Source: Streptoalloteichus hindustanus
GTDB lineage: Bacteria > Actinomycetota > Actinomycetes > Mycobacteriales > Pseudonocardiaceae
NCBI RefSeq assembly: GCF_900129375.1
Contig: NZ_FQVN01000005.1
Coordinates: forward strand, 248,001 to 312,000
Direction: 5' to 3'
Length of the DNA stretch: 64,000 nt
The notes below the pieces were generated by a model that was given only the letters and a program-made list of their open reading frames with translations, was not told the DNA's origin and did no database searches. The first letter of the stretch is position 1; each line of letters starts with the position of its first letter. Both the position numbers and the translations under genes were made by a program. Shown in pieces: positions 15,951 to 64,000 of this stretch.

Positions 15951-18900
15951 GTGTCCGAAACGGCGAATGCTGGCTACCGCGTTTCCCCGCTCCAGCGCCA
16001 TAGGTGGGCCCGGCGGCTCGACGGCCGCGAGCAGCCGTACGCGCAGCTGGGAGTCCGGCTGGAGGGACCGGTCGACGCCGAGCGACTCGCCGCCGCGACC
16101 GCCGCCGTCGTGGCCAGGCACGAGTCGCTGCGCACCAGCTTCGTCGGACTGGCCGGCCGCGCCGCGCCGCTCCAGGTCGTCGGCGAGCCGGGGCCGTCGC
16201 CGTTACGGGTCGTCGAGGCGCCCGACGCCACGGTCGAGGCGCTGTGCCGCGACGAGCGCGCCGGCCTCGACCCCGTCGACGGGCCGACCTTCCGGGCCGT
16301 CCTGACCAGGGTGGCCCCGGACCGGGCGCTGTTCGTGCTGACCGCGCACGCCCTGGTCGGCGACCGGGGCTCGCTGCGGACCGTGCTCGCCGAGATCGCC
16401 GCCGCGTACCGGGGCGACGCCGCGTCGTCGGAGCTCCCGATGCAGTACGCGGACTTCGCCGCCTGGCACGACGAGCTGCTCACCGGTGAGGACGGGGCGG
16501 CGGAGCGCGCGGCGTGGGCCGGGCAGCTCACCGCCGAGCTGTTCGAGCCGGTGCTGGGCTTGGCGCGGCGCGCCGACGGCGCTGCCAGTGCTGCCAGTGC
16601 CGCCAGTGCTGGCAGCGCTGACGGGGCCGGCGGGTGGCGGACGCACCGGACCGAGGTGGACGCCGAGCTGACCCGCCGGGTCGCCGAGTTCGCCGCCGCC
16701 GCGTCCGGCACGCCGGCAGACGTGCTCGCCGCCCTGTTCGAGGTCCTGGTCTGGCGGTTCTGCGGGGAGCGGGACGTCCTGGTCGCCGAGGTCGCCCCCG
16801 GGCGGTCCTACGACAGCCTGCGCGGCGCGGTCGGCGCGTTCGAGCGCGAGGTCCCGGTCGCCTGCCGGCTCAGCGCCGACACCCCGTTCCGCGAGCTGGT
16901 CGCCGAGAGCGCGCGGCGTCGCGCGGAGTGGGTGGACCGCGTCGACCACCTCGATCCGGAGAAGGTGGTGGACCACGCCGGAAAACCCGCGGCCCCGTTC
17001 TTCGCCTTCCACTTCGCCGACGCGTCGGAATCGCTGGTCGCCGACCAGGTCACCTTCGTTCCGGTGCTTGAGGCCGCGACGTCGGACGCCGCGTTCCGGC
17101 TCACCTGCGCCGAGCGCGACAACCGACTCGTCGTCGAGATCGGATACGACGAGGAACGCGTCGACCCGGCCCAGCCCGAGCGTGTCGCGGAATGCTTCGC
17201 CGTCCTGCTGCGGAATGCCATGGCGAATCCCGCGACCCCGGTCGGGGAAATCGACATGCTGTCCGACGCCGAGCGCGAGCGCGTGGTGGCGCTCAGCCGG
17301 GGGCCGGTCGTCGACTCCCCGGTCGTCCCGGTGCACCAGGCGTTCGCGGCGCAGGCGCGGCGCACGCCCGACGCGGTGGCCGCCGTCGCCGACGGCGTCG
17401 AGATCACCTACGCCGCGCTCGACGCCCGCGCCGGACGGCTGGCCCAACGGCTCGTCCAGCTCGGCGTGCGCCAGGGCGACCCGGTCGTCATCTCCGTGGG
17501 CCGGTCGGTGGAACTGCTCGTCGGCGTCCTGGGGGTGCTGAAGGCCGGGGCGGCGTTCGTGCCGGTCGACGTCGCCTACCCGTTGCGCCGCCTGGAGTTC
17601 GTGCTGGAGGAGACGGCGGCGCCGGTGCTCCTGGGCACCAGTGAGTTGCGCGACCGGTTGGGCGAGTGCCGGGCGATTCTCCTGGCGCTGGACGAGGACG
17701 AAGACGACGACGAGCTGGTCGTCGGCAAAGAGTCCACTGTGGACGCTGAGTCGACCGACCTGGCCTACGTCATGTACACCTCCGGCACCACCGGCTCCCC
17801 CAACGGCGTTCGGGTGACCCACGGCGGTCTGGCCAACTACCTGCACTGGGCCGCCGAGGCGTACCAGCTGCGGGAGGGCACCGGCGCGGTGGTCCACTCC
17901 TCGATCAGCTTCGACCTCACGCTGACCGCGCTGCTCGCGCCGCTGCTGGTCGGGCAGCGGGTCGTCCTGCTGTCCGAGACGGCCGGCGTGACCGGTCTGG
18001 TCGCCACGCTGCGCACCAGCCGCGACCTCAGCCTGGTCAAGCTGACCCCGACCCACCTGGACGTGGTCAACCAGCTGCTGGAGCCCGAGCAGGTCGCCGG
18101 CAGCGTCCGCACCCTGGTCGTGGGCGGCGAGGCGCTGCACGCGCGCAGCGTCGAGCCCTTCCGCGCGGCCGGCACGCGGATCGTGAACGAGTACGGCCCG
18201 ACCGAGACCGTCGTCGGCAGCGTCGCCCACGTCGTCGACGAGAGCACCCCGCACGCGGGACCGGTCCCCATCGGCGTGCCGATCGCCAACACGCAGGCGT
18301 ACCTGCTCGACCCGAGGCGCCAGCCGGTGGCCGACGGGGTCGTCGGCGAGGTCTACCTCGGTGGCGCCGGCGTCGCACTCGGCTACCTGAACCGCCCCGA
18401 GCTGACCGAGCAGCGGTTCCTGCCCAACCCCTTCGGTGACGGGCGGCTGTACCGCACCGGCGACCTCGCCCGCCGCCGGGCCGACGGCACCCTGGAGTAC
18501 CTGGGCCGGGCCGACGAGCAGGTGAAGATCCGCGGTGTCCGGATCGAGCCGGCCGAGATCGAGAACGTGTTGCTGCGGCACGGTTCCGTGGGCCAGGTCG
18601 CGGTCGTGGCCCGGCGGGACGAGGACCCCGGCCGGTCCTCCCCGCTGGTCGCCGAGCTGACGCTCGTGGCCTACGTCGTGCCCGCCGACCAGGCGGCCGC
18701 GCCCGGCGTCGCCGACCTCGCCGAGCACTGCCGGGCGCACCTGCCCGAGCACCTGGTGCCGGCCGCGTTCGTGGTCATGGACGCGCTGCCGGTGACCGCC
18801 AACGGCAAGCTGGACCGCGCCGCGCTGCCCCGGCCCGCCGGCCACACGCCGGTCGTCGCCGACTACGTGCCGCCCAGGACCGGCACCGAGGAGATCCTGG

Positions 18901-21900
18901 CCGCCGCGATCGCGACCGTGCTCGGCGTGAGCCGGGTCGGCATCGACGACAACTACTTCGCGCTCGGCGGCGACTCCATCCGCAGCGTCATGATCGCCAG
19001 CCGGGCCCAGGCCAGCGGCGTGGAGGTCTCCGTCGCCGACCTCCACCGGCTGCCCACGGTCCGCCAGTGCGCCGCGCACCTGGACGCCCGCGAGGAGCCG
19101 GCGGAGCCGCCGCGCACCGAGCCGTTCGCCCTGGTGCGCGAGGAGGACCGGCCGCTGATCCCGGCCGAGGTGGAGGACGCCTTCCCGCTGAACCTGTTGC
19201 AGGAGGGCATGATCTTCCACCGCGACTTCGCGGCGAAGTCGGCGGTGTACCACGCGATCGCGTCGGTGCGGCTGCGCGCGCCGTTCGACCTGGACGTGAT
19301 GCGCATGGTGGTGCGCCAGCTCCTGGAGCGGCACCCGATGCTGCGCACCTCGTTCGACATGGGCACCTTCAGCCAGCCGCTGCAGCTCGTGCACACCGAG
19401 TACGAGACCCCGCTGTACCACGAGGACCTGCGGGGGCTGCCGGCCGAGGAGCAGGACTCCCGGGTCGAGGCGTGGATCGAGCACGAGAAGGAGCGCGGCT
19501 TCGAGCTGCACGAGTACCCGCTGATCCGGTTCATGGTCCACCGGATCGCCGACGACGTCTTCCAGTTCACCTACGGCTTCCACCACGAGATCGTGGACGG
19601 CTGGAGCGAGGCGCTGATGATCGCCGAGCTGTTCAGCCACTACTTCTCGGTGGTCTACGACGAGCCGATCGCGATCCGGCCGCCCACCTCGACCATGCGG
19701 GACGCGGTCGCGCTGGAGCTGGAGGCGTTGGAGGACCGGCGCAACTACGAGTTCTGGGACTCCTACCTGGCCGACGCCACGCTCATGCGGCTGCCCAGGC
19801 TGGGCTCGGGGCCCCGGGCCGACAAGGGCGACCGGGAGATCGTGCGGATCGCCGTCCCGGTCTCGGTCGAGTTGTCCGACCGGCTCAAGGAACTGGCCCT
19901 GGCCAACGCCGTTCCGCTCAAGACCGTGCTGATGGCCGCGCACATGGCGGTGATGTCCACCTACGGCGGGCACACCGACACGCTGACCTACACCGTCACC
20001 AACGGTCGTCCCGAGACCGCGGACGGCAGCACGGCGATCGGCCTGTTCGTCAACAGCCTGGCGCTGCGGGTGCGGATGGCCGGCGGGACCTGGCGGGACC
20101 TCATCCTGGCCACGCTGGAGTCCGAGCGGGCCTCCCTGCCGTACCGGCGGCTGCCGATGGCGGAGCTCAAGCGGCACCAGGGCAACGAGCCGCTGGCCGA
20201 GGCGCTGTTCTTCTTCACCAACTACCACGTCTTCGGCGTGCTGGACCGGTGGAAGGACCGCGGCGTCGAGCACGTCGCCAACGAGCTGTACGGCGAGTCC
20301 ACCTTCCCGTTCTGCGGCATCTTCCGGCTGAACCGGGAAACCGGTCACCTGGAGGTGCGGATGGAGTACGACAGCCTCCAGTTCTCCGCCGAGCTGATGG
20401 ACAGCATCCGGGACTGCTACGCGCGGGTCATGGAGACGATGGTCGCCGACCCGCGGGGCCGCTACGACACCCGGGCGTTCCTGTCCGACCGCGACCGGGA
20501 GCTGTTGGCCTCGTACGTCTCCGGCCCCACCGCGCACCACGACGACCTGTGCCTGCACGAGCTGATCGAGGACCGCGCCAGCGAGCGGCCGGACGCCGTG
20601 GCGGTGCAGCTCGACGACGCGGTGCTGACCTACCGGGAGCTGAACCGCAGGGCGAACCGGTTGGCCCACGTGCTCCGCCGGCACGGCGTCGGTCCGGAGT
20701 GGACGGTCGGCGTGCTGGCCGAGCGCTCCGTCGAGCAGATCGTGTCGCTGCTCGCGGTGCTCAAGGCCGGCGGCGCCTACCTGCCGCTGGACCCCAGCCA
20801 GCCGGACGAGCGGATCAACGCCCTGGTGCGCGCCAGCGGGGTCACGGTGGTGCTCGCGCAGGAGCACCTCGTCTCCCGGGTTCCGGCCGGCCCCACGACG
20901 ATCGGGGTGAACCCGAGCGCCGGGGCGGGCGAGGACGCGCCCGACACCAACCCGGTCAGCGGGGTCGTGCCCGCGAACCCGGCCTACGTCATGTTCACCT
21001 CCGGGTCCACCGGACAGCCCAAGGGCGTGGTCGTCGAGCACCGCAACGTCGTGGCCTCGCTCGCCGCGCGGGCGGCGGCCTACGAGGGCGAGGTCGAGCG
21101 GTTCCTGCTGCTGTCGTCGTTCGCCTTCGACAGCTCGGTCGCCGGCATCTTCTGGACCCTCACGCAGGGCGGCACCCTGGTGCTTCCCCGCGAGGGCCAG
21201 CAGATGGAGCCCGCGGGCCTGGTCGAGACCATCGCCCGCCAGCGGCCCACCCACACCCTGGGCATCCCGTCGCTGCTCGCGCCAGTGGTGGAACAGGCCA
21301 ACCCCCCGGGCGAGCTCTCCTCGCTGCGCCTGATGGTCGCGGCCGGCGAGCCCTGCCCCACCGCGCTGGCGCGGGCCTGCGCGACGGCCGTCCCGGAGTG
21401 CGTGCTGGCCAACGAGTACGGGCCGACCGAGGCGACGGTGTGGGCCACGATGTGGTCCGCCGCCGAGGCCCCGGACCGACCGCAGTTGCCGATCGGCTCG
21501 CCGGTGGCCAACACGCGGGTGGAGGTGCTCAACCCGCACGGCCTGCCGGTGCCGATCGGGGTCTCCGGCGAGCTGCACCTCGGCGGCGCCGGCGTCGCCC
21601 GGGGCTACCTGGGCCGGCCGGCCGAGACCGCGGCCAGCTTCCGGCCGGACCCGGCGTCGCCGGGCCGCCGCCGCTACGCCAGCGGCGACCTCGGCCGCTA
21701 CCTGGCCGACGGCGAGCTGGAGTTCCTGGGCCGGGCCGACCACCAGGTGAAGGTGCGCGGGTTCCGGGTCGAGCCGGGCGAGGTCGAGGCGGTCCTGGAG
21801 ACCCACCCGGACCTCCAGCGGGTGATCGTCGTGGCCAGGGGGGAGAACGCCGCGGACAAGGTGCTCGTGGCGTACGTGCTCCCCGTGCCGGGGCAACGGC

Positions 21901-22352
21901 CCGACCCCGCCGACCTCCAGCAGTACGTGCGGGACCGGCTGCCGAAGTACATGGTGCCCAGCGCGTGCGTCGTGCTCGACGCCGTGCCGCTCACCGCGAC
22001 CGGGAAGGTGGACCGGGCGTCGCTGCCGGAGCCGACCCGCGCCGAGCTGACCGGCGGTCGCGGCTACCAGCCGCCGCGCACCGAGACCGAGCAGGCCCTC
22101 GCCGCGATCTGGGCCGACGTGCTCAAGCTGGACCGGGTCGGGATCGCCGACCGGTTCTTCGACCTGGGCGGCGAGTCGTTGCGCGCCATGCAGGTCACCG
22201 CCGCGACCAACCGGATGTTCGGCATCAAGCTGTCGGTGCGGCGGCTGTTCGACGCGCCGACCATCGCCGAGTTCGCCCTCGGGGTGGACGAGGCGCGGCT
22301 GGCGCGGGAAGGGGCCGGCGCGGCCACCGGGGACGGGGCTGGCCGCGCATGA
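15951..22352 (+). CDS. tlmX: NRPS, C*-A(Asn)-T-C-A(His)-T (BlmX/TlmX-like)
   Basis: A 2133-aa two-module synthetase. The first condensation domain (about 1-440) has a ruined active site: HHxxxDG reads HAxxxDR at His133-Ala134. A1 (core YTSGTTG at 609) gives the code DLTKVGEVGK, an Asn code. T1 carries the phosphopantetheine Ser1009 (GGDSI). The second C domain has an intact HHEIVDG at 1211. A2 (FTSGSTG at 1682) reads DSALVAEVWK, closest to the bacitracin His code. T2 has Ser2076. In bleomycin logic this adds the second Asn and the His that becomes beta-hydroxyhistidine; the non-functional first C is explained by the upstream partner TlmV bringing its own C domain. GTG 15951 follows GGGGAGG. 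It heads the co-directional block and overlaps the next gene by 4 nt. Confidence 0.93.
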   Translation: MSETANAGYRVSPLQRHRWARRLDGREQPYAQLGVRLEGPVDAERLAAATAAVVARHESLRTSFVGLAGRAAPLQVVGEPGPSPLRVVEAPDATVEALCRDERAGLDPVDGPTFRAVLTRVAPDRALFVLTAHALVGDRGSLRTVLAEIAAAYRGDAASSELPMQYADFAAWHDELLTGEDGAAERAAWAGQLTAELFEPVLGLARRADGAASAASAASAGSADGAGGWRTHRTEVDAELTRRVAEFAAAASGTPADVLAALFEVLVWRFCGERDVLVAEVAPGRSYDSLRGAVGAFEREVPVACRLSADTPFRELVAESARRRAEWVDRVDHLDPEKVVDHAGKPAAPFFAFHFADASESLVADQVTFVPVLEAATSDAAFRLTCAERDNRLVVEIGYDEERVDPAQPERVAECFAVLLRNAMANPATPVGEIDMLSDAERERVVALSRGPVVDSPVVPVHQAFAAQARRTPDAVAAVADGVEITYAALDARAGRLAQRLVQLGVRQGDPVVISVGRSVELLVGVLGVLKAGAAFVPVDVAYPLRRLEFVLEETAAPVLLGTSELRDRLGECRAILLALDEDEDDDELVVGKESTVDAESTDLAYVMYTSGTTGSPNGVRVTHGGLANYLHWAAEAYQLREGTGAVVHSSISFDLTLTALLAPLLVGQRVVLLSETAGVTGLVATLRTSRDLSLVKLTPTHLDVVNQLLEPEQVAGSVRTLVVGGEALHARSVEPFRAAGTRIVNEYGPTETVVGSVAHVVDESTPHAGPVPIGVPIANTQAYLLDPRRQPVADGVVGEVYLGGAGVALGYLNRPELTEQRFLPNPFGDGRLYRTGDLARRRADGTLEYLGRADEQVKIRGVRIEPAEIENVLLRHGSVGQVAVVARRDEDPGRSSPLVAELTLVAYVVPADQAAAPGVADLAEHCRAHLPEHLVPAAFVVMDALPVTANGKLDRAALPRPAGHTPVVADYVPPRTGTEEILAAAIATVLGVSRVGIDDNYFALGGDSIRSVMIASRAQASGVEVSVADLHRLPTVRQCAAHLDAREEPAEPPRTEPFALVREEDRPLIPAEVEDAFPLNLLQEGMIFHRDFAAKSAVYHAIASVRLRAPFDLDVMRMVVRQLLERHPMLRTSFDMGTFSQPLQLVHTEYETPLYHEDLRGLPAEEQDSRVEAWIEHEKERGFELHEYPLIRFMVHRIADDVFQFTYGFHHEIVDGWSEALMIAELFSHYFSVVYDEPIAIRPPTSTMRDAVALELEALEDRRNYEFWDSYLADATLMRLPRLGSGPRADKGDREIVRIAVPVSVELSDRLKELALANAVPLKTVLMAAHMAVMSTYGGHTDTLTYTVTNGRPETADGSTAIGLFVNSLALRVRMAGGTWRDLILATLESERASLPYRRLPMAELKRHQGNEPLAEALFFFTNYHVFGVLDRWKDRGVEHVANELYGESTFPFCGIFRLNRETGHLEVRMEYDSLQFSAELMDSIRDCYARVMETMVADPRGRYDTRAFLSDRDRELLASYVSGPTAHHDDLCLHELIEDRASERPDAVAVQLDDAVLTYRELNRRANRLAHVLRRHGVGPEWTVGVLAERSVEQIVSLLAVLKAGGAYLPLDPSQPDERINALVRASGVTVVLAQEHLVSRVPAGPTTIGVNPSAGAGEDAPDTNPVSGVVPANPAYVMFTSGSTGQPKGVVVEHRNVVASLAARAAAYEGEVERFLLLSSFAFDSSVAGIFWTLTQGGTLVLPREGQQMEPAGLVETIARQRPTHTLGIPSLLAPVVEQANPPGELSSLRLMVAAGEPCPTALARACATAVPECVLANEYGPTEATVWATMWSAAEAPDRPQLPIGSPVANTRVEVLNPHGLPVPIGVSGELHLGGAGVARGYLGRPAETAASFRPDPASPGRRRYASGDLGRYLADGELEFLGRADHQVKVRGFRVEPGEVEAVLETHPDLQRVIVVARGENAADKVLVAYVLPVPGQRPDPADLQQYVRDRLPKYMVPSACVVLDAVPLTATGKVDRASLPEPTRAELTGGRGYQPPRTETEQALAAIWADVLKLDRVGIADRFFDLGGESLRAMQVTAATNRMFGIKLSVRRLFDAPTIAEFALGVDEARLAREGAGAATGDGAGRA
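16581..16616 (+). repeat. In-frame 9-nt tandem repeat in first C domain
   Basis: Four near-identical 9-nt units (GCTGCCAGT type) encode Ala-Ala-Ser-rich residues in a loop of the degenerate N-terminal condensation domain. Confidence 0.7.
17732..17744. repeat. Highly iterated palindrome GTCCACTGTGGAC inside tlmX
   Basis: Perfect copy of the recurring 13-nt palindrome, here inside coding sequence where it encodes Ser-Thr-Val-Asp in the A1 domain. Confidence 0.7.
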
Positions 22353-25300
22353 CGACGACGGCGTGCGGTGGGACCGGGGTCGGGGGCGCTGGCGCGCCCC
22401 TGGCCTCGGCCCAGCGCCGGCTGTGGTTCCTGCACCAGCTCGCACCCGGCAGCGCGGCGTACAACATCTGCACCGCCATCGAGCTGACCGGCCGGCTGGA
22501 CCTGGCCGCGCTGCGGGACGCCGTCCTGCGGCTCGGCCGGCGGCACGAGGTCCTGCGGGCCACCTTCGGCGTGGTGGACGACGAACCGCGGCAGTGGTTC
22601 GACTCGCCGGCGGTGGCGCCGACCCTGGTCGATCTGTCCGAAGTGGACGGTGGCGGCTGGTCGGAGGTCGAGCGGCGGATGCGGGAGGTCGCCGCTCGGC
22701 CGTTCGACCTGGCGGCCGGCCCGCCGGTCGCCTGGCTGCTGTTCCGCCTCACGCCCGAGCGGCACGTCCTGGTGTTCTCCGTGCACCACATCGTGTTCGA
22801 CGGCGGGTCCCTCGCCGTGGTCTGCGCCGAGCTGGAGGCCGCCTACCGCGCGAGCCGTGAGGGGCGTCCGGACGGTCTGCCCGACGGGATTCCGGGCTAC
22901 AGCGACCTGATCGGCCTGGAGAGCACGCTGGCCGACGAGGACAGTGTGGACTTCTGGCGCGAGACGTTGCGGGACGCGCCGGCCCGCAGCGCGGTGTTCG
23001 GAACCCACCGTGCTCCTGCCGCTGCGCCGGCGCAGCTCGTGGACCGCCGCGCGGTCACCGACTGGGACGCCTTCGACGCGCTGTGCCGGCGCGAGGGCGT
23101 CACCCACTACGTGACGTTGTTGGCCGCCCTGGGCTGCCTGGTCGCCCGCTACTCCGGTCAGCGGGACGTCGTTCTCGGCTCCCCGGTGGCCCTGCGCGGG
23201 CACGAGGCACTGTCCTCTGTGGTCGGAATGCTGACCAACACGCTGCCGTTGCGGCTCCGGCTCGACGGCGACCCCACGTTCCGCCAGGTGCTGGCGCGCG
23301 CCAGGGACAGCGTGATGGACGCGCTCGAACACCAGCTCACGCCGTTCGAGGAGATCGTGGACGCGCTGGAGGTGGCGCGCGATCCCCAGGTGAGCCCGCT
23401 GTTCCAGGTGTTGTTCGCCTACCAGCGGCGACCGGAGGCCCCCGCCCTGCCCGAGGTCGCCAGCCGACTCGTGCCGGTGCCCACGGCGGCGGCCAAGTAC
23501 GAGCTGACGGTCACCGCCACCGAGTTTGCCACCAGGTCCAGCACCGGGTCCGACACCGGGTCCGCCACTGGATCCGGTACCGGGTCCGTCTCCGGGCTCG
23601 AACTGGCCTTCGAGGCCGACCCCGGCCACTGCGGGGACGCGGATCTGCGGGCGTTCTCCCGGCACTTCCGCACCCTGCTCGACGCGGCGGTGCGGAAACC
23701 GGACACCCCGCTGAGCGCGCTGCCACTGCTGTCCGAAGTGGAGCGTCAGCGCCTGGCCCCGCTGACCCGACCGCGCGAGCGCACGCCGGCGGCGCGTCCG
23801 GTGCACCACCTGGTGGAGCGGGTGGCGCGGGAGCGACCGGACGCGATCGCGTTGGTGTGCGGGCAGGAGCACGTCAGCTACCGCGAGCTGAACCGCCGAG
23901 CCAACCGACTGGCCAGGGAACTGCGCCACCGGGGCTGCGGCCAGGACGAGATCGTGGCCGTCCGGATGCGCCGCCGGCCCGACCTCGTGGTCGCGATCCT
24001 CGCGGTGCTCAAGGCGGGCGCCGCCTACCTCCCGATCGACCTCGCGCATCCCGTCGAGCGCGTTCGCGGAACACTGCGCGACGCGGTCGCCCGTCTCGTG
24101 ATCACCGAGTCGGAGCTGCGCTCCGACCTCGACGGCACGGCCGTCCCGGCCGTCCTGCCGGACGACCCCGACCTGGCCCGGCACTCCGACGGCGACCTCG
24201 GCGTGCCCGTCGCCCCGACGGCCCTGGCCTACGTGCTCTCCACGTCCGGCTCGACCGGCCGGCCGAAGGGCGTGGCCATCCAGCACGACAGCGCCGCCGC
24301 CTTCCTCGGGTGGGTCGCGGACGCCTTCCCCGGCGACGACCTCGCCGCCGTCCTGGCGACGACGTCCGTCGGGTTCGACCTGTCGGTCTTCGAGCTGTTC
24401 GGGCCGCTCACCACCGGGGGTTCCGTGGTGCTGGCCGACAGCGCCCTCCAGGTGCCGGAACTCGCGGCGGCGCGCGCCGCGACCCTGCTCAACACCGTGC
24501 CCTCGGCCGCCGAGGCGCTGCTCGACGTCGACGGGTTGCCCACGTCGTTGCGCGCGGTCAACCTGGCCGGCGAGCCGTTGCACCGCGACCTCGTCCGCCG
24601 CATCCAGGACCGGCTGCCGGGCGTGGTCGTCCGCAACCTCTACGGCCCCTCGGAGGCCACCACCTACGCCACCGCGACGGCACTGTCCACAGAGGACGAC
24701 CAGCAGCCCACCATCGGAACCGCCATCTCCCCGGCGGCCGCCTGGGTGGCGGGGGAGGCCGGAGAGCCGGAACCCGCCCACGTCGTCGGCGAACTGGTCA
24801 TCGGCGGCCCCACCGTGGCGCGCGGGTACCTCGGGCGACCGGGGCTGACCGCCGCGAGCTTCCGGCCCGACCCGCGCGGCGGTGGGAGCCGGATCTACCG
24901 CACCGGCGACCTGGCGCGCCGGCGTGGCGACGGCCACCTGGTGTTCCTGGGCCGAACCGACGACCAGGTCAAGGTGCGGGGTGTCCGGATCGAGCTGGGC
25001 GAGGTGGAGGCCGTGCTGCGCGAGATCGCCGGTGTCCGGGCGGCCGTGGCCGTCCCGACCGGTCGCGGCGCCGCCGACCGCCAGCTCGTCGGCTTCGTGA
25101 CGCCCGAGCCCGGCGCGGCGATCGTGCCGGAGGAGGTGCTGTCGACGCTGCGGACCCGACTGCCCGCCGTGATGGTGCCCACCCGGTTGACCGTGCTGGA
25201 GGCGTTGCCGCTCAACGACAACGGCAAGATCGACCGGGGCGCGCTCGTCCGGATGGCCGAGCTGGCGCGACCACAGGCCACCCCCCCGGTTCCGCCCCGC

Positions 25301-30221: not shown

Positions 30222-30225
<4 letters not shown>
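25624..30225 (+). CDS. tlmVIII: Type I PKS module KS-AT-KR-ACP without methyltransferase (BlmVIII/TlmVIII-like)
   Basis: A 1533-aa single PKS module that extends the Ala-ended peptide by one malonate and reduces the new ketone to a hydroxyl. KS has Cys179 (SACSSS), EAHGTGT and NIGHLDAAAG; AT has GHSLGE with Ser615 and HAFHS, the malonyl-CoA type. KR has GGLGGIG and a YxxxN with Tyr1309; the stereo motif reads PDT where B-type KRs have LDD. ACP has Ser1482. About 275 residues lie between the AT end and the KR Rossmann motif, enough for the KR structural half only, so no C-methyltransferase is present. Bleomycin's PKS has one; the product here should be the unmethylated 4-amino-3-hydroxyvalerate, as in tallysomycin. 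It is coupled to both neighbours by GTGA overlaps. Confidence 0.94.
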
Positions 30226-33643
<3,418 letters not shown>

Positions 33644-33647
<4 letters not shown>

Positions 33648-46571: not shown

Positions 46572-46574
46572 ACC

Positions 46575-56320: not shown

Positions 56321-58971
56321 CGGCCAGGTCCACAGCGTCGCTGCTTCCCGCCGACCAACAGGAGCTGCTGCGCGCAATCAACGACCAGACCGCGCCGATT
56401 CCGGCCGGCCGGCTAGACGAGCTGGTGGCGGCCGGGACCGACGCGGTCCGGGCGGACGCCCCGGCCGTGGTCTCCCCGCGCCGCGTCCTCGACCGCGCCG
56501 ACCTGCTCGCCCGCGTGGACGCCCTCGCGGCGCGGCTGCTCGCGGCCGGCGTCGCTCCTGGCGACCGCGTGGTGTGCTCGGTCGAGCCCGGCTGGGAACA
56601 GGTCGTCGCGCTGCTCGGCGTCCTGCGGGCCGGCGGCGTCCACCTCCCGGTGCCGCCCGGCCTCGGCCAGGTCGCCCGGTGGCAGCGCGTCACGCGTTCC
56701 GAGGCGGCGGTCGTGCTCACCCAGTCCTGGCTGGGCGAACGACTGTCCTGGCCGGACTCGGCCACCGTGATCGCCGTGGACGAGGTGGAGCCGGGACCGA
56801 CTCCGGCCACTGTGGACAGAGCACCGGAGGCCGCGGCCTGCCTGGTGCCCGGCGAGGACGGCCGCGACCACGTCGCCGTGAGCCACCGCGCGATCGTCAC
56901 CACGCTCACCGAGCTGAACGCCCGCTTCCGCGTCGGGCCGGAGGACCGGGTGCTGGCCCTGTCCTCGCCCGAGTCCGGGTTCGCGCTCTACGAGACGGTC
57001 GGCGCGCTGCTGGCCGGGGCGACCGTGGTGTTCGGCGACGATCTCGACGCCCGCGACCCCGCGGCGTGGACGGCGTTGCTGCGGCGGGAGAGGATCACCG
57101 TCTGGCACTCGCCGCCCACCCTGCTCGGCATGCTCGTCGACCACCTGGAGGCCAGCGGCGACCGGCTTCCGGCCGAACTCCGGCTGGCGCTCGTCGGTGG
57201 CGAGCGGTTCCCCGCCGACCTGGTTCGCCGGCTTCGCGGCGTTGCGGACCCGGCTCCGGTGGTGGCCGCCCTCGGCGCCGCGACCGTCCCCGGGCTCTGG
57301 ACGACCTGCGCCGAGATCGACGAGATCCCCACCGAGTGGCGTTCGGTGCCGATCGGGCGGCCGTTGCCGAACCACCGCGTCTTCGTGCTGTCGGAGACGA
57401 TGACGCAGTGTCCGGTCTGGGTGACCGGCCGGCTGCACTTCGGCGGTGTGGCCGCCGAACCCTGCTCCGACAGCGACACCGAGAGCGAGTCCGGGGCGCG
57501 GGTGCCGCATCCCGAGACCGGTGAGCCGCTGACGCCCACCGGCCGGTTCGGGCGGGTGCTGCCCGACGGCGTGGTGGAGGTCGTCGGCGACGAGGCCGCC
57601 CAGGTGACGGTGCACGGCCGGGCGTTGAACATGCAGGACACCGAGGTGGCGTTGGCCGGCCACGAGGCCGTGCGGGACGCGGTGGTGGTGCCGGTGACCG
57701 AGGGCGAGTCGGTGGCGCACGTCCGCCTCGCGCCCGGCGCGCAGGTCGACGGCCCGGCGTTGCTGGACTTCCTGCGCCGCAAGGTCTCGCCCTACCTGCT
57801 GCCCACGCGGGTCGAGGTGGTGACCGAGTTCCCCCTCACCTCCGACGGCCGGGTCGACCGCGCCGCGCTGGCCAGCGCCGCGTCTCCGTCCACTGTGGAC
57901 GAGCAGTCCGCGGCGTCGACCGCTCCCGCCGACGACGAGCTGATCCAGCAGGTGACCAGGATCGCCTGCGGCGTGCTCGGGGTCAGCGACATCGAGCCGA
58001 ACATGAACCTGCTCGACGTGGGCGCCACCTCGATCGAACTGGTCCGCCTGGCCACCCTGGTCGAGGAGGAGCTGGGCATCACCGTCGACGTCGAGGAGCT
58101 GCTGCGCTTCCCGTCGATCGCGGTGCTGGTCAGCCGGCAGCTCGGCGAGACCGAGACCATCCCGTCGGCCGCCCCGGACACGGTGTCCGCCACCGGGTCC
58201 GGCACCGAGTCCGACACCCCGCCCGTGGCCGCGTCGTCCGTGCCGGCGACGCCGACTGCGGCGGCCGCCCCGCAGGAGGAGAGCACCTCGGCCAGCACGC
58301 CGCTGCTCGTCGGAATCCTGGAACGGCAGGCCTTCAAGGACGCCGCGCACGGAATCCGCCACGAGTACGACGACACCGAGGGCGTCGAGATCACCGGCTC
58401 CGCGCCCGAGCGGCTGGTGAACCGCCGCACGCACCGCGGCTTCGACTCCCGCCCGGTGGAGTTCGCCGCGATCTCCGAACTCCTCTCCGCGATGCGGCAG
58501 ACCCGCCACGGCGGCGAACCGAAGCGCTGGTACCCGTCGGCGGGCAGCGCCTACCCCGTGCAGGCCTACCTGGTCGTGGAGCCGGGCCGGGTCAGGGAAC
58601 TGCCGTCGGGCAGCTACTACCACCACCCGGCGCGCAACTGCCTGGTGCCCGTGGTTCCCGGCGCCCGCGTCGACGCCTCGGCGCACGCCGAGATCAACCG
58701 CAGGAGCCTGCGCGAGTCCGCCTTCTCGCTCTACCTCGTCGCGCGGATGGACGCGATCACCCCGCTGTACGGGAACCTCGCCGCGGACTTCGCGATGTTC
58801 GAGGCGGGCGCGATGACCCAACTGCTGATGGAGGTCGCCACCGAGCTGGGACTCGGGCTGTGCCCGGTCGGGGCGATGGAGACCGCGCCGCTGCGCGACG
58901 TCCTCCGACTCGGCGAGAGCGACCGCTTCCTGCACGTGTTGCTCGGCGGCTACCCCGGGGACCGGCGATGA
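56317..58971 (+). CDS. tlmIII: NRPS A*(inactive)-T-Ox, thiazoline oxidase (BlmIII/TlmIII-like)
   Basis: An 884-aa protein. The adenylation domain (1-520) has lost the P-loop (the A3 region reads VPGEDGRDH) and the catalytic A10 Lys (GRVDR, Arg512), so it cannot activate an amino acid. The carrier has Ser572 (VGATSI). After a Ser/Thr/Ala-rich linker comes an FMN-dependent nitroreductase-like oxidase (about 665-880; RRTHRGF, YPSAGSAYP), which oxidises thiazolines to thiazoles. In bleomycin the second Cys is loaded onto this carrier by the BlmIV A domain in trans; the same is expected here. The start is an unusual TTG overlapping the tlmIV stop (TTGA), with AAAGGTGG upstream. Confidence 0.93.
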   Translation: MTARSTASLLPADQQELLRAINDQTAPIPAGRLDELVAAGTDAVRADAPAVVSPRRVLDRADLLARVDALAARLLAAGVAPGDRVVCSVEPGWEQVVALLGVLRAGGVHLPVPPGLGQVARWQRVTRSEAAVVLTQSWLGERLSWPDSATVIAVDEVEPGPTPATVDRAPEAAACLVPGEDGRDHVAVSHRAIVTTLTELNARFRVGPEDRVLALSSPESGFALYETVGALLAGATVVFGDDLDARDPAAWTALLRRERITVWHSPPTLLGMLVDHLEASGDRLPAELRLALVGGERFPADLVRRLRGVADPAPVVAALGAATVPGLWTTCAEIDEIPTEWRSVPIGRPLPNHRVFVLSETMTQCPVWVTGRLHFGGVAAEPCSDSDTESESGARVPHPETGEPLTPTGRFGRVLPDGVVEVVGDEAAQVTVHGRALNMQDTEVALAGHEAVRDAVVVPVTEGESVAHVRLAPGAQVDGPALLDFLRRKVSPYLLPTRVEVVTEFPLTSDGRVDRAALASAASPSTVDEQSAASTAPADDELIQQVTRIACGVLGVSDIEPNMNLLDVGATSIELVRLATLVEEELGITVDVEELLRFPSIAVLVSRQLGETETIPSAAPDTVSATGSGTESDTPPVAASSVPATPTAAAAPQEESTSASTPLLVGILERQAFKDAAHGIRHEYDDTEGVEITGSAPERLVNRRTHRGFDSRPVEFAAISELLSAMRQTRHGGEPKRWYPSAGSAYPVQAYLVVEPGRVRELPSGSYYHHPARNCLVPVVPGARVDASAHAEINRRSLRESAFSLYLVARMDAITPLYGNLAADFAMFEAGAMTQLLMEVATELGLGLCPVGAMETAPLRDVLRLGESDRFLHVLLGGYPGDRR
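57888..57900. repeat. Highly iterated palindrome GTCCACTGTGGAC inside tlmIII
   Basis: Perfect copy of the recurring 13-nt palindrome, in the linker before the carrier domain, encoding Ser-Thr-Val-Asp. Confidence 0.7.
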
Positions 58972-60014
58972 GTGTCCACAGGGGACCGGTCAGTGGCCAG
59001 CGCCGCGCCATCGCGCTGGCCACGACCGACTGGGTGCGTCCGGGGGGAACGCCGCCGGGACGGGAACTCCCGCTGGTGCTGCGGCCCAGCCACGACGACG
59101 TCGACCTCGCCGCGTGGGCGGGCACCCACGGCGGCCGGGTCCGCTCCTGGCTGCACCGGTACGGGGCGCTGCTGTTCCGCGACTTCCACGTGGCGCAGGA
59201 GGACTTCGGCGAGGTGGTGCGCGCCCTCGCCGGGGAGCCGCTCGCGTACGTGGAGCGCTCCTCGCCCCGCACCGAGATCGGCGACCACATCTACACCGCC
59301 ACCGACCACCCGGCCGACCAGCCCATCGCGCTGCACAACGAGAACTCCTACCAACGGGAGTTCCCGGCCACCCTGGCGTTCTGCTGCGCGGTCGCGGCCG
59401 AGAGCGGCGGGGCGACCCCGGTCGCGGACACCCGCCGGATCCTGGCCCGTCTCGATCCCGGGGTGGTGCGCGACTTCGCGCGCGTCGGCGTGCGGTACGT
59501 CCGCAACTACGGGGAGGGCGTCGGCCTGCCGTGGCCGGAGGTGTTCCAGACCGACAACCGGGACGAGGTGGCCGCGTACTGCCAGGAGCGGGGCATCGAC
59601 CTGGAGTGGAAACCCGACGGCGGGCTGCGCACCAGCCATGTCCGGCCGGCGCTCGCCGAACACCCCGTGACCGGTGAGCGGGTCTGGTTCAATCACGCCA
59701 TTTTCTTTCATGTCACGAGTTTGCTGCCCGAGGTGCGCGACGCTGTGCTCCGGCAGTTCGCGGAGGAGGACCTGCCGAGCAACACCTACTACGGCGACGG
59801 CCGGCCGATCGAACCGGATGTGCTCGACCACCTCCGGGACGCCTACCGGTCGGAGCTGGTCGCGCTGCCCTGGGAGCCCGGTGACGTGATGGTCGTGGAC
59901 AACCTCCTCTCCGCCCACGGGCGGGAGCCGTTCACCGGGGCGCGTCGCGTCCTGGTGGGCATGGCGGGGACGGTGCGCTGGGACGACGTGCGGGTCACGG
60001 GGGAGACACCATGA
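58968..60014 (+). CDS. Fe(II)/2-oxoglutarate dioxygenase, TauD/SyrP-like, candidate histidine beta-hydroxylase
   Basis: A 348-aa TauD-family oxygenase. The iron site is visible as HNE (His123, Glu125) and distal His317 in SAHGREPF; the 2OG-binding Arg follows in GARRVLVG. HNENSYQ and FNHAIFFHV resemble SyrP-type enzymes that hydroxylate the beta-carbon of amino acids bound to a carrier protein. Bleomycin-type drugs contain beta-hydroxyhistidine, whose hydroxyl carries the sugar, so His on the TlmX carrier is the best substrate guess. Since the hydroxylase-like part of tlmF appears dead, this is the only intact hydroxylase in the window. ATG overlaps the tlmIII stop; the end overlaps the next ATG. 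Confidence 0.88.
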   Translation: MSVHRGPVSGQRRAIALATTDWVRPGGTPPGRELPLVLRPSHDDVDLAAWAGTHGGRVRSWLHRYGALLFRDFHVAQEDFGEVVRALAGEPLAYVERSSPRTEIGDHIYTATDHPADQPIALHNENSYQREFPATLAFCCAVAAESGGATPVADTRRILARLDPGVVRDFARVGVRYVRNYGEGVGLPWPEVFQTDNRDEVAAYCQERGIDLEWKPDGGLRTSHVRPALAEHPVTGERVWFNHAIFFHVTSLLPEVRDAVLRQFAEEDLPSNTYYGDGRPIEPDVLDHLRDAYRSELVALPWEPGDVMVVDNLLSAHGREPFTGARRVLVGMAGTVRWDDVRVTGETP

Positions 60015-61501
60015 CATCGCTCTCCTCGCGACCGGGACTGCGCCGGGCCTCGTTCCTCCAGCGAGGGGCGTGGCGGTGGCTGCGGGAGGCTCCGCCCGCG
60101 GCCGCCTTCGCCGCGCGCGGTCTGCTGGGCAGCGGGCGGATCGATGACGACCGGCTCGCGGCGGCGGCGGACGAGGTGCTGGACGCCTTTCCCCTGCTCC
60201 GCGTGAACTTCGTGGACGACGACGGCCTGTGGATGCGCACCAGGGAGAACGCCGACGCGCTCGTGCGGTCCGACCTGCGCGGCCACCCTGATCCGCAGGC
60301 GCGGTGCGTCGAGTTGTTGCGGGCGGACCGGGACCGGCCCACGGACCCGGAGCGCGATCCGCTGGTCCGCCTGCACCTGGTCCGCCTCTCCGAGACGGAC
60401 GTGGTGCTCGGCGTCGTCGCCCACCAGATGCTCCTCGACGCCCGGTCCCGCTACATGGTGCTGGGCGCGGTGTGGCAGGCCTACTACGGCCGGTTCCGCC
60501 CCGCCCAGTACCGGGACTTCGCCGAGGTCGCGGACTTCCACCCGCTGGACAGGGAGACCGTGCGGGCGGCCCGGCACCGCTGGTGGTCCCGCCGGTTGCC
60601 GGCACTGCCGGTGCGGGGCGGGGACGGCAATCCGGCCGGGCCACCGGCGACCTCGCGGTTGCGGGTGCCCGGGTCGCGCTGGCAGGCGCTGACCGAGCCG
60701 GGCGGACCGTTGGGCGGCAACGGATCGCTGGCCATGGCCGCGCTGACCGCGTGGTGGTTGTGGACACAGGGCACCGGCACGGAAACGGATACCGGCACTG
60801 GCGCTGGCACCGGCACTGGCACTGGCACTGGGAAGGACAGCCTGTACCTGAGCACGGAGGTCGACCTGCGGGACCACCTCCAGCTCGGCTCGGTGGTCGG
60901 CCCGCTGACCGACCGCGTCGTGTTCGGCGTCGACCTGACCGGCCTGCGCGAGCCGTCGTTCCGCGACCTGATGTCGCGGACCCAGGCGGGTTTCCTCGAC
61001 GCGGTCGTGCACTACCTGCCCTACCACGACGTCGTCGACCTCGCGGTGGACCTGGGCGTGGTGACGCCGCCCCGGGTCGCCGCGCGGTGGGACGTGGCCG
61101 TGCACCTGTGCCGCAACGCGCCCAGCAGCTCGCTGACCCGGGGCGAGCGGACGCTGGCCGAGCTCGGGGTCTCCATCGAGCTGTTCCGGGAGGCGGACCT
61201 CATCGGCGGCGACACCAGGTCCGCCACCGACACCTGGGATGGCACCGACACCTGGGACGGCACCACGACGGACCTCAGCGTCGGCGAACTGGGCGAGGAC
61301 ATGGTGATCGTGCTCGACCAGCGCCGAACCCACCCGGCCGGCGGGGGCTCCGCCCTGCTCGACGGGCTCGACGCCGCCATGGCGCAGGCCGTCGCCGACC
61401 CGTCGGCCCCACTGCCGCACTCGGCCGTCGACACCACCACACAGTCCACTGTGGACAAGGACACTGTGGACAGGAACACCGCGCACGAGAACGAGGAGTG
61501 A
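60011..61501 (+). CDS. Stand-alone condensation-like protein, degenerate active site (BlmII/XI type)
   Basis: A 496-aa protein with the overall pattern of an NRPS condensation domain: an FLQRGAWRWL start, LLRVNF, the central motif, and a PYHDVVDLA region. The active-site motif reads HQMLLDA (His138-Gln139, Asp143-Ala144) instead of HHxxxDG, so the catalytic second His is missing. Bleomycin clusters encode free-standing C proteins whose role is thought to include joining the terminal amine; whether this one is catalytic is doubtful. It contains Gly-Thr and Thr-Asp-Thr-Trp-Asp-Gly repeat tracts. ATG overlaps the dioxygenase stop; the C-terminus is polar and repeat-rich. Confidence 0.8.
   Translation: MTSLSSRPGLRRASFLQRGAWRWLREAPPAAAFAARGLLGSGRIDDDRLAAAADEVLDAFPLLRVNFVDDDGLWMRTRENADALVRSDLRGHPDPQARCVELLRADRDRPTDPERDPLVRLHLVRLSETDVVLGVVAHQMLLDARSRYMVLGAVWQAYYGRFRPAQYRDFAEVADFHPLDRETVRAARHRWWSRRLPALPVRGGDGNPAGPPATSRLRVPGSRWQALTEPGGPLGGNGSLAMAALTAWWLWTQGTGTETDTGTGAGTGTGTGTGKDSLYLSTEVDLRDHLQLGSVVGPLTDRVVFGVDLTGLREPSFRDLMSRTQAGFLDAVVHYLPYHDVVDLAVDLGVVTPPRVAARWDVAVHLCRNAPSSSLTRGERTLAELGVSIELFREADLIGGDTRSATDTWDGTDTWDGTTTDLSVGELGEDMVIVLDQRRTHPAGGGSALLDGLDAAMAQAVADPSAPLPHSAVDTTTQSTVDKDTVDRNTAHENEE
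60771..60831 (+). repeat. Short 6-nt tandem repeat (Gly-Thr tract)
   Basis: About ten copies of GGCACC/GGCACT-like hexamers encode a Gly-Thr tract inside the stand-alone condensation-like protein. Confidence 0.75.
61224..61263 (+). repeat. In-frame 18-nt tandem repeat in the stand-alone C-like gene
   Basis: About two copies of an 18-nt unit encode Thr-Asp-Thr-Trp-Asp-Gly in a polar loop. Confidence 0.65.
61444..61456. repeat. Highly iterated palindrome GTCCACTGTGGAC
   Basis: Perfect copy at the 3' end of the condensation-like gene, followed within 6 nt by a second, partial copy (ACTGTGGAC). Confidence 0.7.
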
Positions 61502-61504
61502 CCC

Positions 61505-62074
61505 GTGACCGAGACGACCCAGGCGACCGAGCCCACCTACCACGTGGTGGTCAACGACGAGGAGCAGTACTCGATCTGGCCCACCGAGCAGGACATCCCG
61601 CTCGGCTGGAAGGCCGTGGGCCGCACCGGCACCAAGGAGGAGTGCCTGGCCCACATCGAGGAGGTCTGGACGGACATGCGGCCGCGCAGCCTGCGCGAGC
61701 ACATGGCCGCCACCGCCGACGCCGAGCCGGAGGAGGTGCCGGCCGACCCGACCCCGAGCCTGGTCGAGCGGCTCAGCGCCGCCGAGCAGCCGATCGAGGC
61801 CAGCCTGCGGCCCGAGCGCACCGCCTCGGCGCTGCGCGCGGCGATCGACGAGGGCTACGTGATCGTCCGCTTCACCGAGACCCGCGGCGGCACCGAGCTG
61901 GGCATCCAGCTCGACCAGGGCGCGACCGACCTCGCCGGCGCGGACTTCGCGGCCGGCAGCGGCGAGGTGAAGCTCGTGGGCACCCTCACGCTCGACTTCG
62001 AGCCGGTGCGCTGCGTCGCCCGGATCGACCTGGCGACGCTGGCCGGCCAGGGCCGCCTGGAGCGGGTGGCCTGA
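61505..62074 (+). CDS. MbtH-like NRPS accessory protein with extra C-terminal domain
   Basis: A 189-aa protein whose first ~75 residues are a clear MbtH-like domain: [10 protein letters not shown] (residues 17-26), GWKAVG, and [15 protein letters not shown]. MbtH proteins bind adenylation domains and keep them soluble or active. Ordinary MbtH proteins end near residue 70; here about 110 more residues follow, with an acidic linker and a compact segment ([19 protein letters not shown]... [20 protein letters not shown]) that I do not recognise. GTG 61505 follows GAGGAG and lies 3 nt after the preceding stop. Confidence 0.88.
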
Positions 62075-62109
62075 GGCGACCGGGGCGGACGGCGGCGAGG
62101 GGAGGTGGC

Positions 62110-63258
62110 ATGACCGACAACCCGGCGATCCGGCGGATCGCGGTGTTCGCCCGGCTCCGGGGACCCGGCCTCGGTGACCTCGTCCAGCGGAACATCCTGC
62201 TGTCGTTGCTGCGCAGGGCCCACCCGCTGGCCGAGGTCAGCGTCGTGGCCGGGTCGGAGTTGGTCGACCGCTTCTCCGAACTGCTGACCGGCCACAGCTA
62301 CGCCACGGACGTGCTGCGCTGCCCCGCCGTCGGGGACACCGATCCCGGGCGGTGGCGGGAGTTCCGGCGCGTTCTGGCCGAGCGGGGCTTCCAGATGTGC
62401 GTGGTGGACCCGGACAGCAGGGACCTCGACGCGCGGGAGGCGCGCGCCGCGGGGATCCCGGTCCGGGTCGCCCTGCCCACCGGAGGCCCGGGGGACACCG
62501 CGATCACGCACCCGATCCGGCTGCCACCCTCGTTGCGCGGACGGCCCGACCTGTACGACTACGCCCGCGGCGCCGCCGCCGCGCTCGGCCTGCCCGCGCC
62601 CCGCTCCGGCGAGGTCGTTCCGGTGCTGCCGAAACGTCCGGAGTGGACACCGGAGCTGGACGCCCCGGCGCCCAGGATCGCGGTGCACCCCGGCGGCGCG
62701 CGGCTCTGGAACCGCCGGTGGCCGTTGCGGCACTTCGCGCGGTTGTGCGTCCGGCTGGTCGACGAGCTCGACGCGAGCCTCTACCTGCTCGGGGCCGAGC
62801 AGGAACGGGCGGAACTGGCCGTGTTGAGCCGGGACGTGCTCGCCCAGCGGCCGGACGCGCGCGTCCACGTCGCGGTCGGCGAGTCCCTCAACCGGACGGC
62901 CAACCTCCTGGCGGGCGTGGAACTCCTGGTGGGCAACGACTCCGCGCCCGCCCACCTCGCCGCGGCGCTGCGCACGCCGACCGTGGTGCTGTACGGGCCG
63001 ACGGGAACCGAGTTCCTGTGGGCCAGGGTCTACCCCCGGCACCGCGGGGTGTCCCTGCGGTACCCCTGCCAGGACATCCGGCACGCGGCCGAGGACGTCG
63101 CCACCCGGCGGTGCGAGCACGCCTGCCCGGTGGCCTACGAGTCGCCGGAGGGTCCGTACCCGAGATGCCTGACCGACCTTCCGGTGGACGAGGTGTGGCG
63201 AGCGGTGACCCGGCAGCTCCCCGCCACCTCCGCACGACCGAACGGGAGCCCGAGATGA
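62110..63258 (+). CDS. tlmE: GT9 heptosyltransferase-like glycosyltransferase (BlmE/TlmE-like)
   Basis: A 382-aa GT-B enzyme of the ADP-heptose:LPS heptosyltransferase family (GT9). Visible motifs are GLGDLVQRN near the N-terminus, HPGGARLWNRRWP in the middle, and the donor-site VGNDSAPAHLAAAL followed by PTVVLYGPTG. In a Gram-positive actinomycete without LPS it must act on another acceptor; in bleomycin-type clusters the orthologue attaches sugar (gulose and/or mannose) to the aglycone. ATG follows GGAGGTGG and lies 35 nt after the MbtH gene. The end overlaps the next gene (ATGA). Confidence 0.9.
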   Translation: MTDNPAIRRIAVFARLRGPGLGDLVQRNILLSLLRRAHPLAEVSVVAGSELVDRFSELLTGHSYATDVLRCPAVGDTDPGRWREFRRVLAERGFQMCVVDPDSRDLDAREARAAGIPVRVALPTGGPGDTAITHPIRLPPSLRGRPDLYDYARGAAAALGLPAPRSGEVVPVLPKRPEWTPELDAPAPRIAVHPGGARLWNRRWPLRHFARLCVRLVDELDASLYLLGAEQERAELAVLSRDVLAQRPDARVHVAVGESLNRTANLLAGVELLVGNDSAPAHLAAALRTPTVVLYGPTGTEFLWARVYPRHRGVSLRYPCQDIRHAAEDVATRRCEHACPVAYESPEGPYPRCLTDLPVDEVWRAVTRQLPATSARPNGSPR

Positions 63259-64000
63259 GCGTGGAACGCGTCCGCACCATCCTGTCCGTCAACTTCAACC
63301 ACGACGGCTCTGCGGTGGTGCTGTCCGAGGGGCGCATCCGGGGCTACGTCAACACCGAACGGTTCTCCAGGATCAAGAAGCACCCCGGCCTGCGCGCGGC
63401 CGACCTGGCCGAGGTGCTCGACCAGGCCGGCGTGGAACTGGCCGACGTCGACCACGTCCTGCTGTGCAACCTCCACAACATGGACTCGCCGGACGTGGTC
63501 CGGTTGCACGGCTCGGACCTCAAGGACACGTGGTTCGAGTTCTGGCTCAACCAGCGCAACACCGAGGTGCGGATCGACGGGCGGCGCATCCCGTGCACCG
63601 TCAACCCCGACCACCACCTGATCCACGCGGCCACCGCCTACTTCACCTCGCCGTTCGAGTCGGGGGCGGCGCTGGCCATCGACCCCACGGGCTGCCGGGC
63701 GTTCCTGGGCAGGGACAACAAGCTCTTCCCGTTGCGCCGCGACTACGACAAGTGGTTCAACGCCAACTTCGGCTACTGCTCGGTGTCCGAGCTGATGTTC
63801 GGCTCCAGCATCGTCGGCGCGGGCAAGGTCATGGGCCTGTCGCCCTACGGTCGCCCCACCGGCGAGGTCGAGCCGCCACCGGACAGCATGGTCGACTTCG
63901 AGGAGCTCGTCCGGTTCGCCGACCGCGACCCGGTGCCCGTCCAGGTCGGGGACCGCACCCTCAACGCCGCCCTGGCCTACTACATCCAGCTCGGCCTGGA
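63255..64000 (+). CDS. tlmD: O-carbamoyltransferase, NodU/CmcH family (BlmD/TlmD-like), 3' truncated by window edge
   Basis: The first 248 residues of a carbamoyltransferase are present; the gene runs off the right edge. The N-terminal NFNHDGSAVVL, NPDHHLIHAATAYFTSPF and KVMGLSPYG segments belong to the ATP/carbamoyl-phosphate-dependent family that builds carbamoyl-AMP and transfers carbamoyl to a sugar hydroxyl. In bleomycin-type products the mannose carries a 3-O-carbamoyl group. ATG overlaps the tlmE stop. Confidence 0.92.
   Translation, partial: MSVERVRTILSVNFNHDGSAVVLSEGRIRGYVNTERFSRIKKHPGLRAADLAEVLDQAGVELADVDHVLLCNLHNMDSPDVVRLHGSDLKDTWFEFWLNQRNTEVRIDGRRIPCTVNPDHHLIHAATAYFTSPFESGAALAIDPTGCRAFLGRDNKLFPLRRDYDKWFNANFGYCSVSELMFGSSIVGAGKVMGLSPYGRPTGEVEPPPDSMVDFEELVRFADRDPVPVQVGDRTLNAALAYYIQLGL

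Follow-up and report, generated by a model that had tools for sequence, protein, structure and literature searches.

Organisation and relatives of the tallysomycin-type gene cluster of Streptoalloteichus hindustanus, whose polyketide synthase has no methyltransferase domain

Described bleomycin-family clusters and the identity of the locus

The tallysomycin (tlm) cluster of Streptoalloteichus hindustanus, reportedly described by Tao et al. in 2007 (doi 10.1039/B615284H), the bleomycin (blm) cluster of Streptomyces verticillus and a cluster on the Alteromonas plasmid pAMDE1 (NC_019394) are the described systems with which we compared the locus of this study. That locus is a hybrid nonribosomal peptide synthetase (NRPS) and polyketide synthase (PKS) gene cluster in a stretch of 64,000 nucleotides of the S. 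hindustanus genome (7.28 Mb, 33 contigs), at positions 248,001 to 312,000 of contig NZ_FQVN01000005.1 (C9:248001-312000), hereafter the window. BlmVIII, the bleomycin PKS, has a methyltransferase (MT) domain, and blm is not known to include an amino-sugar aminotransferase. Tallysomycin differs from bleomycin by an extra 4-amino-4,6-dideoxy-L-talose and by having no valerate methyl group (PMC6270211); tlmVIII encodes no MT domain (PMC8698034), and the tlm cluster holds tlmT, tlmA and tlmB (PMC6804068), TlmB appearing in PMC6283892 as well.

The locus is almost certainly the tlm cluster itself. Sh ble, the same protein as TlmA, is a bleomycin-binding protein whose gene serves as the Zeocin marker in laboratory work. 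The protein encoded at L009:5876-6289 (68876-69289 in window numbering, used throughout, with 20 kb of sequence added on the left of the window and 39 kb on the right) contains Sh ble, being identical at 124 of 124 residues (1BYL/2ZHP, 275 bits), compared with 154 bits for the zorbamycin-binding and 151 bits for the bleomycin-binding protein. The ble gene is reported to originate from S. hindustanus (PMC3328454). On this identification the cluster is the one published as tlm in 2007, and the observation of the earlier note on this DNA, which had read it as being of the bleomycin/tallysomycin type, was correct; Sh ble, the MT-less PKS and the tlm-type genes sharpen that reading to the tallysomycin cluster.

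Comparison with tlm revealed likeness in the identical Sh ble, the acetyltransferase, the ABC exporter, the aminotransferase, the MT-less PKS and the residue series, and no difference as judged from reported features rather than from full sequence. With blm the locus shares two cyclisation domains, an A-PCP-oxidase protein, carbamoyl and sugar genes, a BlmB-like acetyltransferase and the residue series given for the bleomycin family in PMC3777966, whereas its PKS is without an MT domain and it has an amino-sugar aminotransferase. The pAMDE1 cluster is alike in six adenylation (A) codes (Ser, Asn, Asn, His, beta-Ala, Cys) and likewise has TauD and Asp/Asn-hydroxylase genes. It differs by an MT domain, evident in the PKS alignment and also reported in PMC3777966, where the plasmid is described as having no sugar genes and Phe and Gln are predicted at the places of Ala and Thr.

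The nearest relative found is Streptosporangium violaceochromogenes JCM 3281 (L030, L047-L050), which matches the locus near gene-for-gene at 63-86% identity, radical SAM gene included. However, its PKS has an MT domain whereas that of the window has none, no homologue of the DegT aminotransferase was present among the genes called in 80 kb, and its Ble-like protein aligns over 73 residues only. This species was described as the producer of victomycin and platomycin, which belong to the bleomycin group, and its cluster is possibly theirs; no paper was found whose title or abstract start concerned either compound.

Several points weigh against equating the locus with tlm. The match rests on Sh ble identity, gene content and reported traits rather than on an alignment of whole clusters, the exporter (TlmT) and acetyltransferase (TlmB) homologues having been matched to the tlm gene list and not to tlm proteins. 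In addition, a search of plasmids with the ble gene at DNA level gave no match. Other plasmid searches gave only matches under 60% identity. Since no direct alignment to the tlm record underlies the match, the locus might instead be a closely related, separate tallysomycin-type cluster of an unnamed Streptoalloteichus species whose product would be a tallysomycin analogue, and the genus does have unclassified members beside the two species named by NCBI. We consider this very improbable, as Sh ble is identical at every residue whereas TobZ already differs between the two Streptoalloteichus genomes compared, and the locus has each of the tallysomycin traits looked for, namely exporter, MT-less PKS, binding protein, acetyltransferase and aminotransferase. 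The TobZ of the second genome, G001, is identical to 3VER at 570 of 570 residues, while that of the window genome differs at many places; 3VER is the protein of S. tenebrarius; as the genus has two named species, G001 would be S. tenebrarius and the window S. hindustanus, an elimination on which, with the 124-residue identity of Sh ble, the species name is based. A search of G001 found no match to the carbamoyltransferase of the cluster at E <= 1e-150.

A second alternative, that the locus is a bleomycin cluster whose valerate receives its methyl group in trans from the HemN-like radical SAM protein (L009:3630-4904), derives from the presence of that gene in the cluster and from the ability of some HemN-like radical SAM enzymes to methylate. 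The radical SAM protein seems no stand-in for the MT domain because the S. violaceochromogenes cluster has both, its radical SAM protein being 81% identical; the aminotransferase, in addition, fits tallysomycin. This alternative is the least credible of those considered, and tlm remains the identification followed below. Homologues of the radical SAM protein were 81% identical in S. violaceochromogenes and 64-65% in two Micromonospora clusters, and were absent from the called genes of four other genomes with related clusters: G021 (probable Actinosynnema mirum), Lentzea xinjiangensis, Streptomyces pinistramenti and G582.

Organisation of the cluster and its right-hand extension

Genes were called by codon usage with our own script and families were assigned by Pfam. 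On this basis the cluster comprises 28 plus-strand genes from 12173 to 75515, of which 17 lie wholly or partly inside the window. The earlier note had placed a bleomycin/tallysomycin-type NRPS-PKS cluster at 15951..64000, and both Pfam domains and computed A codes bear it out there, plus-strand genes running without break from 15951 to beyond the window end. The cluster is, however, larger than claimed: the ABC exporter gene at about 12173 is its first, and its end lies about 11.5 kb to the right of the window. The genes of the window, with Pfam domains and A codes, are as follows.

12173..13972, plus strand: ABC exporter, TlmT candidate (ABC_membrane, ABC_tran)
15951..22352, plus strand: BlmX/TlmX-type NRPS, C-A-PCP-C-A-PCP, Asn and His (codes DLTKVGEVG, DSALVAEVW)
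22349..25627, plus strand: BlmIX-type NRPS, C-A-PCP, Ala (code DLFNNALTY)
25624..30225, plus strand: BlmVIII-type PKS, KS-AT-KR-ACP, without MT domain
30222..33647, plus strand: BlmVII-type NRPS, TubC_N docking-C-A-PCP, Thr-like (code DFWGVGMVH)
33644..41872, plus strand: BlmVI-type NRPS, ligase-like A and two modules, Ser and Asn (three A, two C, two PCP)
41865..43685, plus strand: BlmV-type PCP-C protein
43685..44677, plus strand: NDP-sugar epimerase, presumably BlmG-type (Epimerase, GDP_Man_Dehyd)
44670..46571, plus strand: large protein with C-terminal Asp/Asn beta-hydroxylase domain, presumably BlmF-type (Asp_Arg_Hydrox, 444-598)
46575..48461, plus strand: asparagine synthetase-like amidotransferase (Asn_synthase, GATase_7)
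48458..56320, plus strand: BlmIV-type NRPS, C-A-PCP-Cy-A-PCP-Cy, beta-Ala and Cys (three C, two A, two PCP)
56317..58971, plus strand: BlmIII-type A(degenerate)-PCP-oxidase (AMP-binding, PP-binding, Nitroreductase; code GFYHLGLLW)
58968..60014, plus strand: TauD-family Fe/oxoglutarate oxygenase, SyrP-like (TauD)
60011..61501, plus strand: lone condensation-like protein (Condensation, weak)
61505..62074, plus strand: MbtH-like protein with C-terminal extension (MbtH at residues 1-53 of 189)
62110..63258, plus strand: GT9 heptosyltransferase-like glycosyltransferase, presumably BlmE/TlmE-type (Glyco_transf_9)
63255..64000, continuing beyond the window end to 64871, plus strand: carbamoyltransferase, presumably BlmD-type (Carbam_trans_N/C on the full protein, L009:255-1871)

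The A codes, each of nine positions, come from an alignment in which 95 extracted A-domain stretches were placed and the columns were fixed on domain 100-A1 of pAMDE1. For 11 of the 13 published pAMDE1 domains (PMC3777966, Table 1) the codes were identical at all nine positions, a count that includes 100-A1 itself (without it, 10 of the 12 independent domains), and the other two are incomplete stretches that agree wherever letters exist. Simple-pattern motif scans overlooked A motifs in several good domains, and only their HHxxxDG and DxxxxD results are used here. In protein VI the codes are DMASYGCLL (ligase-like, no standard code), DVWHVSLVD (Ser) and DLTKVGEVG (Asn), and in protein IV VDWVVSLAD (beta-Ala) and DLYNMSLIW (Cys); DLFNNALTY is the Ala code of BlmIX, and DFWGVGMVH is one position away from the usual Thr code. 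The first C domain of protein IV has HHxxxDG (~178), its other two have DxxxxD (~1230, ~2318), and HHxxxDG was not found in the lone condensation-like protein. The codes give the series Ser-Asn-Asn-His-Ala-(malonate)-Thr-betaAla-Cys, as the earlier note had it, with two cyclisation domains and one oxidase. As in bleomycin-family clusters, a single PKS module lies between the Ala and Thr modules, the cyclisation domains are in IV and the oxidase domain, which matches the bacillamide oxidase BmdC, is in III.

Two parts of the domain-by-domain comparison in the earlier note require amendment. The claim of a match to the bleomycin line module for module holds for domains and codes, although the PKS is without the MT domain of its closest relative. 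The cysteine assigned to protein III stands on a carrier joined to an oxidase, as claimed, but the A code GFYHLGLLW begins with Gly, and III probably does not load Cys itself because Gly stands where the code Asp should be. The epimerase, GT9 transferase and carbamoyltransferase named in the note were confirmed by Pfam, and the sugar and carbamoyl genes of bleomycin-family clusters are present in the window and its right-hand extension. Exporter homologues 48-76% identical lie inside or at the edge of the clusters of five relatives (S. violaceochromogenes, L. xinjiangensis, S. pinistramenti, G582 and G021). The MbtH-like homologues in seven relatives' clusters are also long, at 189-195 residues.

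To the right of the carbamoyltransferase lie, in order, a type II PCP (best PDB match 4NEO), an HldE-like kinase/nucleotidyltransferase and the HemN-like radical SAM protein; then two more Asp/Asn hydroxylases, a glyoxalase-fold protein, an ankyrin protein and a DUF5990 protein; and last a DegT sugar 4-aminotransferase, a 520-residue protein of no assigned kind and, two genes downstream of the aminotransferase, a GNAT-glyoxalase protein. The latter matched bleomycin acetyltransferase 2ZW4 at 319.7 bits and is BlmB-like. The earlier note had asked for talose and resistance genes on this side, and Sh ble, the BlmB-like acetyltransferase and the DegT aminotransferase were all found there, the last of these fitting the synthesis of 4-amino-4,6-dideoxy-L-talose. 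Genes for the talose sugar amount to the DegT gene in the cluster, one RmlC-type epimerase elsewhere in the genome and a talosyltransferase for which there is only a candidate.

That candidate is the 520-residue protein (L009:10025-11587, window 73025-74587). Its N-terminus is glyoxalase/Ble-like (PF00903, E 3e-7), its C-terminal part had no Pfam match up to E = 1, and the protein had no NCBIfam match at 1e-5 and no PDB match at 0.01. An alignment of eight relatives has a C-terminal DIDCFVL in the six nearest and PGCLVL in the other two, and DIDCFVL resembles a glycosyltransferase metal site. The protein is put forward as a candidate talosyltransferase whose front part may bind the drug; TlmK, the talose transferase, is an unusual one. 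Its gene adjoins the aminotransferase in the window, Lentzea, S. pinistramenti and G582, and is also present in S. violaceochromogenes and Micromonospora craterilacus, where no aminotransferase was found.

On the left of the cluster, two tandem narGHJI-like operons occupy -6014 to 645 and 1055-7732, with large subunits 67% and NarH-like proteins 65% identical, the Nar names coming from sequence reading rather than a family search.

Related clusters and the methyltransferase domain of the PKS

Among 60 relatives, a first search gave matches in 17 at E <= 1e-60, which, G021 (6e-155) aside, look like ordinary A domains; G021 holds a syntenic cluster. One of 396 genomes in a phylum sample matched at E <= 1e-100, the window's own, and four of 390 in a family sample at E <= 1e-150, own genome included, adding G582, which belongs to the family of the window. 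A scan of genome contigs yielded seven confirmed loci from 62 matched stretches: S. violaceochromogenes, L. xinjiangensis, S. pinistramenti, M. haikouensis, Rhizocola hellebori, M. craterilacus and M. lutea. The census is incomplete, as the second genome in the query alignment of the scan was not among its matches. Rhizocola (L067-L070), in which no cluster genes were called despite a partial PKS match, was omitted from all alignments and trees, and the fragmented M. craterilacus locus was kept in the PKS trees and omitted from the concatenated tree and the A-code table.

When single genes are compared, S. violaceochromogenes stands closest to the window (63-86% identity), the others being mostly 44-75% identical. 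S. violaceochromogenes, G021, Lentzea, S. pinistramenti and G582 have the code series of the window with single-letter differences. The codes of M. haikouensis and M. lutea (L059-L062, L063-L066) differ at IX (DVAHVSLVE, DVAHVSFVE) and VII (DVFSLALVH), and their Asn code is on a separate A-domain gene and not in VI. Methyltallysomycin was the product predicted for an MT-bearing, tallysomycin-like Micromonospora cluster (PMC8698034), a prediction for a related strain that the codes of these two species do not clearly support.

The PKS of the window has Pfam KS, AT, KR and ACP domains and no MT domain at E<=1e-5. Relative to the MT-bearing S. violaceochromogenes homologue, whose residues 344-1955 have Methyltransf_12 and related Pfam models between AT and KR, it shows a gap of 355 columns after residue 894. 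Ten PKSs were compared, those of the window, eight actinobacterial relatives and Alteromonas. Four (window, G021, Lentzea, S. pinistramenti) are MT-less and 1497-1533 residues long, and six (S. violaceochromogenes, G582, three Micromonospora, Alteromonas) have 1762-1955 residues, the MT domain in the five other than S. violaceochromogenes being read from alignment with the PKS of that species.

A concatenated tree was built from 13 proteins and the PKS minus its MT columns (eight clusters, 12236 columns kept); it is of a quick kind, and five of its eight rows have a letter make-up unlike that of the alignment. In it the window groups with S. violaceochromogenes, and G582 falls inside the group of the three other MT-less clusters, with which the PKS-only trees agree. 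The state of the MT domain changes three times on the tree and is not clustered, 385 and 404 of 500 shuffles giving counts as low. A single group of the four MT-less PKSs was rejected (approximately unbiased (AU) test, p 3.5e-55), and a clade of G021, Lentzea and S. pinistramenti, a hypothesis named after the tree had been seen, gave AU p 0.0064. Gain of the domain instead of loss was discarded, given the rejected MT-less grouping and the domain in the distant Alteromonas PKS.

These results fit best with an old MT domain that was lost at least twice, because the four MT-less PKSs do not form one clade, and most simply three times. Two losses would suffice if the domain had been transferred into G582. 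The tree of the MT domain places S. violaceochromogenes with G582 and M. haikouensis with M. lutea, like the rest of the PKS; no branch reached the starred level, so such a transfer may have occurred. The linkers, compared by eye, lend weak support to separate losses, being short and loosely aligned: a short stretch kept in the window resembles both edges of the domain in S. violaceochromogenes, Lentzea has a left linker resembling the one in G582, and less is left in G021 and S. pinistramenti. Overall, we think it likely that the domain was cleanly removed several times, in the tallysomycin lineage, in S. pinistramenti, and in Lentzea together with the probable A. mirum.

The loss is not coupled to the aminotransferase. 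Homologues of the latter are present in the window, Lentzea, S. pinistramenti and G582, and absent from the called genes of G021 and of the S. violaceochromogenes, M. haikouensis, M. lutea and M. craterilacus stretches. That of G582 is split into two frames of 296 and 87 residues (L079, about 16983-18143), either a sequencing error or a broken gene.

Proposed biosynthesis and implications

From the gene content, codes, missing domain and Sh ble identity observed here we infer the order of steps, the tailoring assignments and the product. The NRPS modules and one PKS module would assemble a Ser-Asn-Asn-His-Ala-malonate-Thr-betaAla-Cys-Cys chain, the two cysteines of which would be converted to a bithiazole by both cyclisation domains together with the protein III oxidase. 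Lacking an MT domain, the PKS would leave the valerate unit without a methyl group. Tailoring enzymes would then provide hydroxylation, the carbamoylated disaccharide and the amino-talose, and the producer would be protected by export, by binding to Sh ble/TlmA and by acetylation by TlmB.

The cluster is a well-studied one, making a bleomycin relative and being the source of the Zeocin-resistance marker. Among the papers found on the tallysomycin MT domain and on genome mining of the bleomycin family, no title or opening of an abstract among those listed mentions repeated MT loss. Our comparison yields a small set of relatives, including a near gene-for-gene sister that still has the MT domain missing from the tallysomycin PKS. 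If the losses are as proposed, the deletion of a single domain, with the rest of the assembly line left intact, would be a repeated evolutionary step in this family, and the tallysomycin PKS would record one such event.

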